From positions 1 to 64,000 of the forward strand of contig JYPD01000011.1 in NCBI GenBank assembly GCA_001567305.1: DNA of 64,000 nucleotides. Direction: 5' to 3'. Both the position numbers and the translations under genes were made by a program. Below are positions 15,968-22,068 of the stretch, piece by piece. The notes beneath the pieces are model-generated. The model ran no database searches. It was not told the DNA's origin and was given only the letters and a program-made list of their open reading frames with translations. Position 1 is the stretch's first letter, and each line of letters opens with the position of its first letter. This stretch comes from a candidate division WS6 bacterium OLB21. GTDB taxonomy: Bacteria > Patescibacteriota > Dojkabacteria > B142 > OLB20.

Positions 15968-17441
15968 ATGGCATTAAGTCCAGATAATCCAGTAGTAGGT
16001 TATGACAGCGAAGGAAACAGGATTGAGAATAGCTTAAATAGTTTGCCTTTTAACTCAGCTCTTCTAACTACAGGTGATTTCTTTCTTTATTACCATTTAA
16101 TCTCGTCAATCCGTAGAATTGATCCTCCTGCTCAAGAAGAGGTTGAGAGGATCAGACAATACCTGGAGATGGCAAGATATCCGGAATGGGATCTTGGGCC
16201 TGCTAACCAAGGCAAACCCGAAGCTCTCGTACTCTTTCAAAACATAAATCATTTGGGGTAAACACTTTGGGACAGAAACACAGATAGTTAGAGGTTCTAC
16301 TAGTGTCTTTAAAACTTCACTAGATGTTGAGTCTGAGGAGTATAGAGAAAGCATGTTTAGCCTAGTTGAATCAGCTTTCGCAGATTGTGGAGTATTACTA
16401 AGAGCAATTCTTAAGGATATAGATAATAATGTTCAGGATGCAGACAAAATGCTTGCGGCATTAGTCGTTAAAGAAGATATGCTATATCACAAGTTCAGGA
16501 CAGATAATGCTAACATGTTTGCTAGTTTACAAGGTTCCGATTTTGCCCAAGAGGATATTTTGCCGACAGACGATGACTTTACTAGAGAAAGAAAGATAGA
16601 GCTTAGGCTTCGGCAAATCGTTGCCGAGGCGGGTTACAACCCTCAGCATAGTGAACACAATACTATGCAGAGGGCGTTGACATCTTTTGCTAGACAAGCT
16701 TCAGAGCGATGGTCAGAAATGAATCCGGAACTTGCAGAGTTTGATGATTCACTTAGCGTTATTTTTTCTAAGGGAAGATTTTACGCTTTTGCAGAGTTAC
16801 TTGCCGGCGTGCCCGTCAGAGATGAGGATTATGTCCATTCTCTTATAACAATTCTTAGGCGCGAGAAGCTATACCAGCAGTTGTTCGGTCTATCTAATCT
16901 TGGCGATCCCGAGAACATCGATTATTTTCACGAAGACGCAGCTGGGCTTGGACTGGGACCTATAAACTACGGGTTACTAGAAGATGAAAATGGGTGGAAT
17001 CGATTTCTTGAAATTTCACGAAAGCTTTTTGCAATAACACAGTTAAAAGACGAGGACTTGTTTGCGGTAGGTTCTTACCTTCCAAGTGTAGGTGCGGGCT
17101 TAATAAAATATTCTGAAATGTCTGGAAGCTCTGTTAAGAACAATATTATTGCAGCGTTAATGCAACATTTGCTAATAACCGAAATTGCAGCAATTAGGAG
17201 CAGCGACACAAATTCTACACATACAGAAACATTCAATAGCTATTGTCGTTTATTAGGAGTACCCACCCCAGAGGATATTGGTATCGAAGAATTGCACGCC
17301 CAAAGTATACAAAAACTCTATGCAGAGAATACAAATTTTGGGATTGGTGATATAATTAGACAACTTCCTCGAGAAGTTTGTGAATATATTGGCAGGTATT
17401 GGTCATTTTTTAACTCAACATACCGAACCTGCAAAAGATAG
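15968..17441 (+). CDS. Unknown soluble protein of about 490 aa, frameshifted
   Basis: The first frame (15968-16261) ends at a G4 run near 16255. Removing one G restores HLGKHFGTETQIVRGSTSVF and joins the 362-aa downstream frame. The protein has no signal peptide or membrane segment, is acidic and largely helical, and I recognise no domain. It starts 120 bp from the divergent rpmB. A 67-aa Pro/Ser-rich ORF follows directly. It belongs to a class of orphan soluble proteins that recurs in this window at 17818, 45844, 47114 and 54269. Confidence 0.7.
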
Positions 17442-17817: not shown

Positions 17818-19098
17818 TCAGCAATTAATAGCAGTCGGATCAGAACATCCTAGCGGGTTAGGGCATGAACTTTTGTAAGTAGAGGGATCTCCGTTTTTAA
17901 CTTTAAATTTGTACCCACAACTGGGGCAAATAACTTCATCTTTATATAAAAGTTCTTGACCTTGAGGCGCAAAGGTTATGGATTGTGTTTGAAACCCTAC
18001 ACCGACAGATTTATCTCGAGACAGGCCGTAAGAGAATCCGCAACCCTTGAGCACATAATTTTCTTGCTGCATTCTTAGTATTTGTTCCTCTTTATCCAGT
18101 AAGTCAAAACTGGCCAAGGTCGGTTGTTGTTCACGGATGCCTTTAAGGAAAGCATCAAGCCTGTATTGCTGTCTCCAAATTTCTTCGATGATTAGTAGGA
18201 GACAATCTTCATCTGCGTTAAAATCTGCTGAATAAAAGATTCTTGCTGCTTCTGCTTCAATCGAAGGGATGATTGTTTCTTGAATTTGCCTGCGAATATC
18301 GGTTTCTAGAAATGTCGCAATCTCTCTGGATTCAGATTCGGTAAGAGATGTTCTTCTTCTTTCTTGAATAAACCTTAAGATTGCTTCATGATCGCTTGAG
18401 CCAATCTCTCTGGAAAAGCTCATGATATCTGTATCCGTCAGATTTGTTTCCTGAGGAACTTCTATTTTCAACTCTTGCAGGAGCTGCTGATAGTCATTAT
18501 AGTTTCCGTTGCTCGGAAACCAGTACTGATTTACAACTTCCACACCATCATTAAAACTGTAGATGAAGATACTGTCGTTGCCTTCGTAGCCACGCTCTTT
18601 AGCTTGTTCTGTTAATGGTGGACTGGGGCTAAATTCAACTAGACTTCCTTGATATCCACTCGCACGCGCAGTAACAAGCTTTTCGTAGAAGCGTTTGTTT
18701 TCTATAGCTCGAGCGTATTCGAAATCATAGCTTGTTACCTGTGTAGAGATTAGTGATTCATCGAGCAGTGAATCAATGAATCCAAATTGTGATTGTAGCC
18801 TTAAACCATCGTCTGTATCTCTCCAATAAAGTTCGTAGTTGCTTTCTCCTTGATGCCTTGCGATAAATCGCTCTGTAATTGCCGAAAACAAATTGTCACT
18901 TGTTTCAGCAAGTGCTGCTGTATAGGCTTCGGGAGAGGATTCGTAATAACTGCTAAGTAAAGTGGCAACATAATTAATTGAGTTACCTGCAATACCGGTA
19001 AAGGCATTTTTGAGCTGACGAACAGATTCAAGACGAGGATCAAGTTGCTGATTAATATCTATATTGTCAACGGTTGTTATTGCAGGTGCTTCGCCCAA
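17818..19098 (-). CDS. Unknown protein with C-terminal zinc ribbon, under a cobalamin riboswitch
   Basis: 426 aa from a TTG start (TTGGGCGAAGCA); an in-frame stop lies four codons upstream, so no longer start is possible. The first 340 residues are acidic, mostly helical and without recognised domains, membrane segments or signal peptide. The C-terminus has CPSCGYKFKVKNG then CPNPLGCSD, a probable Cys4 zinc ribbon, plus extra cysteines at the end. A cobalamin riboswitch core lies in its leader on the same strand. No B12 enzyme or transporter domain is seen. It may be a B12-linked factor, but that is inferred only from the riboswitch. Confidence 0.75.
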   Translation of the reverse strand: MGEAPAITTVDNIDINQQLDPRLESVRQLKNAFTGIAGNSINYVATLLSSYYESSPEAYTAALAETSDNLFSAITERFIARHQGESNYELYWRDTDDGLRLQSQFGFIDSLLDESLISTQVTSYDFEYARAIENKRFYEKLVTARASGYQGSLVEFSPSPPLTEQAKERGYEGNDSIFIYSFNDGVEVVNQYWFPSNGNYNDYQQLLQELKIEVPQETNLTDTDIMSFSREIGSSDHEAILRFIQERRRTSLTESESREIATFLETDIRRQIQETIIPSIEAEAARIFYSADFNADEDCLLLIIEEIWRQQYRLDAFLKGIREQQPTLASFDLLDKEEQILRMQQENYVLKGCGFSYGLSRDKSVGVGFQTQSITFAPQGQELLYKDEVICPSCGYKFKVKNGDPSTYKSSCPNPLGCSDPTAINC

Positions 19099-19103
19099 AG
19101 TAT

Positions 19104-19245
19104 TGTATTACGAGCAGGGAACATAAAAGTTCGAGAAGGTCTCTGCTCGGAGAAATAATGTAGTCTTACGGTATTCGGACTTTATCAACCGTTGCGGCAC
19201 AGTGAGGGAATCACACCCTACTTCCCCGTAAGCTGATCTCAATAT
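19104..19245 (-). ncRNA. Cobalamin (B12) riboswitch
   Basis: On the minus strand the conserved core is present in order: GGGGAAGTAGGGTG-TG-ATTCCC, then CTG-GCCGCAACGGT, then AAGTCCGAATACC. This corresponds to the GGGAA / GGTG-ATTCC / CCGCAACGGT / CCGAAxACC blocks of cobalamin riboswitches. A 7-bp stem, CTTACGG (19226-19232) with CCGTAAG (19165-19171), closes the core. A second stem, CGAGCAG with CTGCTCG (about 19111-19150), follows and could be the expression platform next to the TTG start at 19098. Confidence 0.85.
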
Positions 19246-19440
19246 ACACAAAAGGTCACAAAATATGCAATCCTTTTGCCAGTAAATGTTAAAATCGTTA
19301 TCATAAGCAGGAATATTTTGATTAAATGAATCCTTTTAAAGCAGTTAAATCATCGTTAAAAACGCAGGCTCTAAAGATCAACTTCGGGGCTGAATCCGCG
19401 CTATCTTTGGAGGGCGTCTGTAGAAAAATCTAGATATTGG

Positions 19441-20127
19441 ATGTTGAATTCAATTTATCCAAAAAATGTAAAAGGGCAGAATCTACACTTGGTAATAAAG
19501 GAGGCTCTTGAGAATGATAAATTCATTTTACACATTGGATGTGGAACAAATGCACAAGCTTTACGAGATCTAAAGGCTTTAGGTGCGAAGAATCTAATTG
19601 GTTTAGATTTTCAAATTGAAGGTAAGCTTCCGGCGGATATTGTTTGTGTAAGTCTTGATCTGCGAGCAGGTCTTCCTGTTGAGGATAATTCGTTTAGGGG
19701 TGTGGTTTTTGGGTCTTATCTTTTCTCACAACTTGAACCTGAAGAATTACTAAAACTTCTAGAAGATATTGACCGTATTACAGGTGAGGGTAGCAAGGGA
19801 TTTCTTGGTCCCTTTTATCCTCGAAAATTATTTAATAGTCCTTTTTCAGAGAAATACAAGGATTTCAAGAATCCATTGTTTGGTTTTGTCAGAAGCAGAA
19901 GCACAAACAAAAACAAATGGAGACTTTATAGATCCAGAACTGCAAGTTTGTCGACAGTATTATCATCAAGTAGAAATAATCGAATCAGTAAGTTCACAAT
20001 ACCTTTTATAACTTTTTCTGATCTGGGGTTAAAGGCTATGTCGGCAAAACTGGCCGGCAATGCTCAGATAAAAAAGGATTATAAGCCAGTTTTGCCGAAC
20101 GAGTATTACATTACTTTCGAGAAGTAA
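19441..20127 (+). CDS. SAM-dependent methyltransferase-like protein, possibly frameshifted
   Basis: 228 aa with a methyltransferase-like motif I, FILHIGCGTNAQALRDL, then NLIGLDFQ and LPVEDNSFRGVVFGSYLF. Codons 150-195 look unlike a protein (Arg/Ser/Asn runs), while another frame there reads GDFIDPELQVCRQYYHQVEII, so two compensating indels near 19890 and 20015 are possible. An upstream frame from ATG 19326 (MNPFKAVKSSLKTQALKI) may be the true N-terminus. Substrate unknown. Convergent with pyk. Confidence 0.6.
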   Translation: MLNSIYPKNVKGQNLHLVIKEALENDKFILHIGCGTNAQALRDLKALGAKNLIGLDFQIEGKLPADIVCVSLDLRAGLPVEDNSFRGVVFGSYLFSQLEPEELLKLLEDIDRITGEGSKGFLGPFYPRKLFNSPFSEKYKDFKNPLFGFVRSRSTNKNKWRLYRSRTASLSTVLSSSRNNRISKFTIPFITFSDLGLKAMSAKLAGNAQIKKDYKPVLPNEYYITFEK

Positions 20128-21538
20128 TGTAGTCTTTCATGTCTACATACTCAAATATGCTTGGGAATGTGCTCAGATTACCGAGGATTTCATTACCCTT
20201 GCCAATAACTAGCAATTTGCTAGTTTTAGATACCAACTTTTGTTCGTATATATAGTTAATAATGCCCGAGATGGCAGCATCTCTGTCTTTGTACCTGAAC
20301 GGATAAGTAAAAGCTTGAATACCTTTACTTAAATTTAACTGTCTTTTTAGGATGCTGTCAGAAACAAAAGCATAAATTGGAAGCCTGAGATTATGTCTGG
20401 CAAGAAGCCGCGCGGTACTACCTACTTGGCTGACAACGATAATTGCATCGAGTTCAAGTGTCTTGCTAACCTCAACTGCAGCGTTTGTCATGGCCACACC
20501 GATTTGTTGGTCATCAAGTTGAAATGATGGGAAAACCTCTGGCTCCATAAATTGCTCGTTTTCTATAGCAATCCTGCTCATAATTTCGACGGTTTCGATT
20601 GGGTATTTTCCTGCTGTGGTTTCGCCGGATGTCATGACAGCATCTGTACCATCTAATACTGCATTGGCAACATCTGTAATTTCTGCTCTGGTTGGAAGCG
20701 GTTTTTCGATCATCGATTCCAGCATGTTTGTTGCAGTTATCACTGGTTTTGCGGCTTCATTACATTTGTATATGAATTCCTTTTGCAGTATTGGCAGTCG
20801 TTCTAACGGAATTTCTGCTCCCATATCGCCACGAGCTATCATTATGCCGTCTGATGCTTTTAAGATTTCATCAAAGTTATCGACTCCTTGTTGATCTTCA
20901 ATCTTGGCTATAAGTTTGATCTTAGAATCCTTAAGATATTTTCTGATAATTGAGATATCTTTTTTGCTTCGAATAAATGAAGCTGCAATAAAATCCCAAT
21001 TGTCACTAGTGCAAAATTCAATCTGTTCGATGTCTCTTTTGGTTACAGGAGGATTATTCAAACTTGTACCCGGAACATTCATGCCTTTTCCACCTTTGAT
21101 AACAGAACCATTGATTACTTTTGTATAGATTTTTGCGTTTGCAATCTTTGTGACACGAAGCATGGTCTCGCCTTTGTCTATGTAAATGATGCGATCTGGC
21201 TTCATTTCTTTATACAGTTCGGGATAGGTTACAGGATAGATTGGATCTTCTTCTTTGCTGCCGATAATAAATTCATCTCCTGGTTTTACTAAAACATCTT
21301 CTGAGAATTTGTTCAGTCGCAACTCGTGTCCCTTTATATCGAGCATTAAGGAAACATCTTTAGAAATTGACCTAACAAGATCTGCCACTCGCTTAAGTTC
21401 TGGCACATCTGCGAATGCCCCGTTGATTCTGGCGACATTCATACCGCTTTTAATCATCTTTTCAAGAACTTCTGGCGCCCAACTTGAAGGTCCGATTGTA
21501 CAGACGATTTTTGTTCGTTTAGATAAATATTTTCCCAT
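20111..21538 (-). CDS. pyk: Pyruvate kinase
   Basis: 475 aa from ATG 21538 (MGKYLSKRTKIVCTIGPSS). Converts PEP and ADP to pyruvate and ATP. Barrel motifs: LIAKIEDQQGVDNFDEIL with the catalytic Lys, MIARGDMGAEIPLERLP, and TNMLESMIEKPLPTRAEITD, then DAVMTSGETTAGKYP. The C-terminal domain is complete. Odd point: the usual ARxNFSHG loop reads ARINGAFAD, so the Ser/His residues near the K+ and ATP site are replaced. The start is 3 nt from the stop of the upstream SpoU methyltransferase gene. Confidence 0.94.
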   Translation of the reverse strand: MGKYLSKRTKIVCTIGPSSWAPEVLEKMIKSGMNVARINGAFADVPELKRVADLVRSISKDVSLMLDIKGHELRLNKFSEDVLVKPGDEFIIGSKEEDPIYPVTYPELYKEMKPDRIIYIDKGETMLRVTKIANAKIYTKVINGSVIKGGKGMNVPGTSLNNPPVTKRDIEQIEFCTSDNWDFIAASFIRSKKDISIIRKYLKDSKIKLIAKIEDQQGVDNFDEILKASDGIMIARGDMGAEIPLERLPILQKEFIYKCNEAAKPVITATNMLESMIEKPLPTRAEITDVANAVLDGTDAVMTSGETTAGKYPIETVEIMSRIAIENEQFMEPEVFPSFQLDDQQIGVAMTNAAVEVSKTLELDAIIVVSQVGSTARLLARHNLRLPIYAFVSDSILKRQLNLSKGIQAFTYPFRYKDRDAAISGIINYIYEQKLVSKTSKLLVIGKGNEILGNLSTFPSIFEYVDMKDYITSRK

Positions 21539-21540
21539 TT

Positions 21541-22068
21541 TTATTCTTGTATTAAAGTATAAATTGCGATGGCGCATGAAATAGTTACATTTAGTGATGC
21601 CCCTTTGCCAAACATGGGGATATAAATAGCATGATCTGCCTTAGCCAGCGTTGCTTTTGAAACTCCCTGTGCTTCATTACCAACAATCAGGGCAATCTTA
21701 CCGAATTTTGGAAGGTACTTACTTGCAAAATCTTTAACAGAGATAGCATCATCAGTAAGTTCAACTGCAATTATTGCATATCCCTGCCTGCGAAGTTTCT
21801 CAATTACCTTGCCGGTTGTTTTTCCTTGTTGCCAGCGAACGCTATTTTCTTTACTGCGAGAGACTTTTTGAAGCTCTTTTCCAAATGGTGGAATATGTGA
21901 AATTCCAGTTAGAAATATTTCTTTTACGCCTGATGCATCTGCTGTTCTGAACATACTGGCTACATTTCTGGCGTATTGGATATTTTCAAGAACCAAAACT
22001 AGCTCGAGCTTAGGACGCTCAAGTTTTCTTTTAAATCGTTTTAGTTCTATTCCTCTAAGTTGTTTCAT
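21541..22068 (-). CDS. SpoU/TrmH-family RNA 2'-O-methyltransferase
   Basis: 175 aa with the three SPOUT motifs: NVASMFRTADASGV, then ALIVGNEAQGV, then IYIPMFGKGASLNVTISCAIAIY, which form the SAM-binding trefoil knot. It 2'-O-methylates tRNA or rRNA; the target cannot be assigned. It precedes pyk by 2 nt in the same orientation and probably shares its transcript. Confidence 0.88.
   Translation of the reverse strand: MKQLRGIELKRFKRKLERPKLELVLVLENIQYARNVASMFRTADASGVKEIFLTGISHIPPFGKELQKVSRSKENSVRWQQGKTTGKVIEKLRRQGYAIIAVELTDDAISVKDFASKYLPKFGKIALIVGNEAQGVSKATLAKADHAIYIPMFGKGASLNVTISCAIAIYTLIQE

Follow-up and report, generated by a model that had tools for sequence, protein, structure and literature searches.

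When a cobalamin riboswitch stands before a gene of no recognised B12 function, what does that gene do? Four target classes are recognised for these riboswitches, namely B12 synthesis, B12 transport, cobalt transport and isozymes of B12-dependent enzymes (PMC3766115), and a 426-amino-acid protein encoded in the candidate division WS6 bacterium OLB21 fits none of them by sequence. We analysed the 64,000-nucleotide stretch of DNA that holds its gene (the window; features in Table 1). The original prediction, made from the sequence alone, had placed a B12 riboswitch in the minus-strand leader of this gene. Infernal, run with all of Rfam, bears this out with a significant match to the cobalamin model RF01689 (AdoCbl-II), at 42.3 bits against a curated gathering score of 36.5 (E = 9.3e-7 for the whole window against all of Rfam), and the site is the sole RF01689 match in the 1.05-Mb genome.

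The aptamer has a conserved junction core with covarying stems. The predicted closing stem is P3, whose sequence varies between leaders while its pairing is kept: across 13 leaders true partners gave 203 against 114 +/- 12 for mismatched partners, and none of 20,000 permutations (0/20000) was as high. Changes on both sides are also found in two further stems of the aligned leaders. The GUGCCGC block that contains L5 is invariant in 13/13 leaders, L13 reads CGAGCA in 11 of the 13 and CGCGCA or CGTGCC in the other two, and L5 UGCCG is complementary to CG(A)GCA in the loop of the P13 hairpin with one A bulged, a kissing-loop complementarity read by eye from the aligned sequences. Judged by these sequence features, the window RNA is an ordinary member of a known riboswitch class. 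It resembles AdoCbl-II and other cobalamin riboswitches (RF01689, RF00174; clan CL00101) in its aptamer core, P3, L5 (UGCCG; consensus UCCCG in PMC10653944), P13/L13 kissing-loop platform and probable OFF logic, and differs in controlling a gene outside the known target categories. Some of its close relatives score best with RF00174 and one with RF01482, below the cut-off of that model.

Table 1. Features of the riboswitch and the controlled gene, in window coordinates.
Feature	Position	Strand	Basis
Cobalamin riboswitch aptamer, AdoCbl-II type	19163..19245	-	RF01689, 42.3 bits; lineage model R1, 74.2 bits
P3 5' strand CTTACGG, partner 19171-19165	19226..19232	-	Sequence; P3 pairing across 13 leaders
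P3 3' strand CCGTAAG	19165..19171	-	Sequence; P3 pairing across 13 leaders
L5 loop UGCCG, predicted to kiss L13	19195..19199	-	Sequence; complementary to CG(A)GCA, one bulged A
P13 hairpin UCUC-CGAGCA-GAGA; loop L13 = 19149-19144	19140..19153	-	Fold with L13 held; leader alignment
Anti-L13 segment CTGCTCG, predicted to pair with CGAGCAG (start free) or codons 2-4 CGAAGCA (start enclosed)	19111..19117	-	Folds with L13 free or held
TTG start codon	19096..19098	-	Aligned with ATG starts of homologues
426-aa protein, no long hydrophobic stretch	17818..19098	-	ORF; 4 close and 4 remote homologues; AlphaFold pLDDT 71, pTM 0.63
C-terminal Cys-rich tail CPSC...CPNPLGC...C, possible zinc ribbon	17821..17928	-	Cys 391/394/412/418/426; Pfam Zn_ribbon_3 below cut-off

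The 426-aa reading frame was confirmed, and its TTG start is supported by alignment of TTGGGCGAAGCA in the window with ATGACCGAAGCA and ATGAGCGAAACA in homologues, which have ATG at the same place. As had been anticipated, the controlled gene has none of the usual regulon functions. The protein has no match over cut-off in Pfam, NCBIfam or PDB sequences, these searches including B12 uptake proteins (DUF4430/DUF6580, periplasmic binding proteins and BtuCDF; Pfam) and domains of the B12-independent isozymes MetE, NrdAB and NrdD. AlphaFold, run on five sequences, gave a mean pLDDT of 71 and pTM of 0.63, with residues 40-345 mostly confident and the cysteine tail not; a confidence of 71 was reached by one of the five models, the others scoring 42-53. 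Foldseek found no match in the PDB at E <= 0.001 for either structure model, both being of moderate or low confidence. The sequence lacks a hydrophobic segment of the kind found in signal peptides or membrane spans (no 19-residue stretch above 0.85 Kyte-Doolittle), and this conserved protein is probably cytoplasmic. Its tail was predicted to form a Cys4 ribbon, and the four cysteines are indeed present, together with a C-terminal one, in a segment that resembles a zinc ribbon; the ribbon itself is less secure, with Zn_ribbon_3 (PF13248) at 12.2 bits against a cut-off of 27, a region that is not confidently modelled and cysteine spacing that varies among homologues. A MetE-like identity, considered for the cysteines, was rejected, there being no domain match and a predicted secondary structure that is not a barrel. 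A viral origin was rejected as well, with no relative among viral contigs, no PHROG below E = 0.01 and no viral fold match at E <= 0.001. The neighbouring 362-aa ORF (window 16353-17441, plus strand) is also without a Pfam match.

Within the class Candidatus Dojkabacteria (WS6), searched in 86 genomes, we found nine family members that form two remotely homologous groups; six came from protein search and three (window, G021 and G041) from the RNA. A protein search of 97 genomes gave the close homologues in G001 (41% identity), G006 (33%), G008 (33%) and G003 (30%). Identity in the group-1 alignment is 26-39%, marking these sequences as highly diverged, and the reading frame is preserved over about 400 codons despite this low identity. 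Upstream of the close homologues lie RF00174 matches of 44.8 and 60.1 bits (G001 and G006), an RF01689 match of 46.1 bits (G003) and a weaker riboswitch in G008 (RF01482 36.8 bits, below the family cut-off; RF01689 27.3 bits). The riboswitches in G021 and G041 precede proteins of 479 and 587 aa, and a profile of these two proteins led to further members in G034 and G015, with riboswitches of 33.5 bits (below cut-off) and 38.7 bits (above). Profile-to-profile alignment joins the two groups over 239 collinear columns (E = 1.2e-5, probability 81%). This region includes an E-[FI]-S-P motif, and the strands and helix that come after it are common to both structure models. A cobalamin riboswitch is present just upstream in 9/9 members, so that every homologue found has kept it. 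Across the phylum, an A1 profile search of 380 genomes returned no credible member outside the class; in a genome-contig scan the window protein alone gave no match, and a four-sequence alignment recovered three Dojkabacteria/WS6 records. The protein family under the riboswitch appears to be undescribed. Two copies are irregular. In the G001 homologue a frameshift close to the C-terminus leaves the Cys tail encoded in another frame (L003:1380-1480), a sequencing error or a real break, and the G034 homologue, which may be decaying, has CGTGCC as L13 and an ATG in P13 that is followed after four codons by an in-frame stop (L093:1430-1500).

The regulon places this family beside a second kind of target. 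A covariance model built from 13 leaders and run on the 86 class genomes returned 23 candidate sites, 9 before the 426-aa family and 11 before a DUF4430 lipoprotein gene followed by a DUF6580 membrane protein gene, the only other common target in the class; the remaining sites lie at a contig end (G009), before a cbiD-like gene (G084) and at a weak match (G011, E = 0.019). Like the 426-aa gene, the DUF4430+DUF6580 pair (PF14478, PF20221) carries the same riboswitch type directly upstream, in 11 genomes, but it encodes a membrane protein and a lipoprotein that are unrelated in sequence to the 426-aa protein. Animal transcobalamins also have DUF4430 as their C-terminal region (PMC4350170), which makes a B12 uptake system the probable identity of the pair, and the B12 link of the 426-aa protein is strengthened since the other common target of its riboswitch looks like B12 uptake. 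Both targets occur in G001, G003 and G034, each under its own riboswitch, and five genomes, the window genome (G000), G006, G015, G021 and G041, carry the family with no DUF6580 uptake gene detected. The cbiD-associated riboswitch (RF00174, 116 bits; G084:C17, L022:613-2156) is on a 5.4-kb contig of a genome with 7% contamination and is possibly a contaminant. The riboswitch adjoins a pyruvate kinase gene in G000, G001, G003 and G004 (window 19163-21577; L009:1023-3079). At the G004 site, DUF4430+DUF6580 replace the 426-aa family behind an aptamer with the GGGGAA and TACC variants typical of 426-aa leaders, which suggests gene exchange under a shared riboswitch.

We examined the expression platform by folding the window leader with L13 free or held. 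With L13 free, CGAGCAG of L13/P13 is able to pair with CTGCTCG 25 nt downstream, and the start is free; if the kissing loop holds L13, codons 2-4 become the partner of CTGCTCG and the TTG is enclosed. The possible second platform stem noted beside the TTG start is this CGAGCAG/CTGCTCG pairing, which folding supports as real. Complementarity as good as that in the window was reached by 2/500 shuffles, and in 7/9 leaders the anti-L13 segment does better than nearly all shuffles; in G001 and G008 it is no better than chance (80/500 and 78/500 shuffles reach it). The G003 leader has a terminal hairpin and U-run just before the ATG, the G001 and G006 leaders hold the start codon in or against a stem, and terminator-like hairpins also end several leaders of the DUF4430/DUF6580 uptake genes. 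Three group-2 leaders (L025, L026 and L094) have a very compact platform, with the start codon in the P13 3' strand or a few bases after it. Because repressing corrinoid riboswitches of the same platform architecture have been experimentally dissected (PMC10653944), we infer from the leader sequence an OFF switch, with the protein made when cobamide is scarce; since activating corrinoid riboswitches also exist (PMC10653944), this sign is the probable one. A cobamide, probably AdoCbl, would bind the aptamer and let L13 dock on L5, whereupon the released CTGCTCG would pair across the start codon and stop translation. Without ligand, L13 would pair with CTGCTCG and leave the TTG start free, and the 426-aa protein would thus be made only in cobamide shortage.

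In G008, nrdR, a class II ribonucleotide reductase gene and further genes precede the family gene, and the gene for a PduO-type cobalamin adenosyltransferase lies convergent to it. Neighbours differ in the other genomes, none is constant, and the gene therefore appears to act singly. The window genome encodes a cobalamin adenosyltransferase and class II-like ribonucleotide reductases, and class II-like reductases occur in most genomes that carry the family. G041 has both family and riboswitch, and searches there for a class I/II ribonucleotide reductase, a PduO-type adenosyltransferase and DUF6580 all came back empty. Strict dependence of the family on a class II ribonucleotide reductase was rejected, none being detectable in G041. 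The window genome also has three consecutive class II-like ribonucleotide reductase domains (L073:4494-11786; G000:C22:62493-69785), spread over a 593-aa protein and the 1425-aa protein after it, in which two barrels are fused and a TSCPD domain is present; multi-copy matches of this kind occur in G001, G002, G004, G005, G006, G007, G011, G018 and G024.

What the protein does can be weighed against this background. The original prediction had suggested a possibly undescribed B12-linked protein, and it gains support from the RF01689 match, the 9/9 retention and the co-regulation with the uptake pair. Since the family is co-regulated with that pair, cobamide acquisition or handling is our first choice: an AdoCbl-II type riboswitch with OFF logic would control a single gene for a conserved protein that helps to obtain, retain or handle scarce cobamide, in parallel to DUF4430/DUF6580 uptake. 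We give this reading an even chance of being correct. Against it stand the lack of any domain or fold match, of an uptake-type signal or membrane segment and of a constant neighbour, and the G041 genome without the B12 genes searched for. Tentatively, and at somewhat short of even weight, we further propose that the 426-aa protein founds a family of new fold whose members, in Dojkabacteria that depend on B12, bind, salvage or modify cobamides or else stand in for a B12-dependent step. The main rival, which we think rather unlikely, has the protein replace a B12-dependent activity without itself needing B12, alone or as one component, and be produced when B12 is short in the manner of MetE or alternative ribonucleotide reductases elsewhere. 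In its favour, isozymes that spare B12-dependent enzymes form one of the four classic kinds of cobalamin riboswitch target (PMC3766115), G041 keeps the family although searches there gave no class I/II ribonucleotide reductase, and the five genomes without a detected DUF6580 uptake gene also favour substitution; yet the searches linked the protein neither to MetE, NrdD or NrdA/B nor to any other Pfam/NCBIfam enzyme, its sequence and model contain no recognisable catalytic site, and class II-like reductases are present in most family-bearing genomes.

It is also conceivable, although improbable in our judgement, that the protein acts outside cobamide metabolism, for instance at contacts with host or partner cells, and that AdoCbl is read as an environmental signal. 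The ppe2 gene of Mycobacterium tuberculosis (PMC11260477) offers a precedent in which a B12 riboswitch likewise precedes a gene of uncertain function, although its product is a PPE protein of an unrelated organism and has no relation to the 426-aa family. The high sequence divergence of group 1 and the presence of riboswitch and gene in G041 without the B12 genes searched for would suit such a role, whereas a regulon shared with a probable B12 uptake system, the lack of a visible secretion signal and the position of the G008 copy among B12-related genes speak against it. Scarcely credible is a chance match or relic before an ORF that is not a functional gene: the modest margin of the RF01689 score over its cut-off, the G001 frameshift and the disturbed start and variant L13 of G034 would fit it, but the comparative data already contradict it through 9/9 co-occurrence, stem covariation and a frame kept over about 400 codons.

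A cobalamin riboswitch reliably marks a gene for B12 supply, cobalt supply or B12 sparing, and among open-licence papers we found none that describes such riboswitches in Dojkabacteria or other candidate-phyla bacteria. The riboswitch identified here marks a real, probably B12-related protein that is a good target for experiment, and its coupling in 9/9 cases to a family without known domain or fold, in a small-genome candidate-phyla lineage, offers a specific, testable lead towards a B12-related protein that has been missing and hints at the way in which Dojkabacteria regulate cobamide supply. Should the protein prove to have a new fold that acts on cobamides or replaces a B12 step, it would represent a B12 function absent from any current catalogue.
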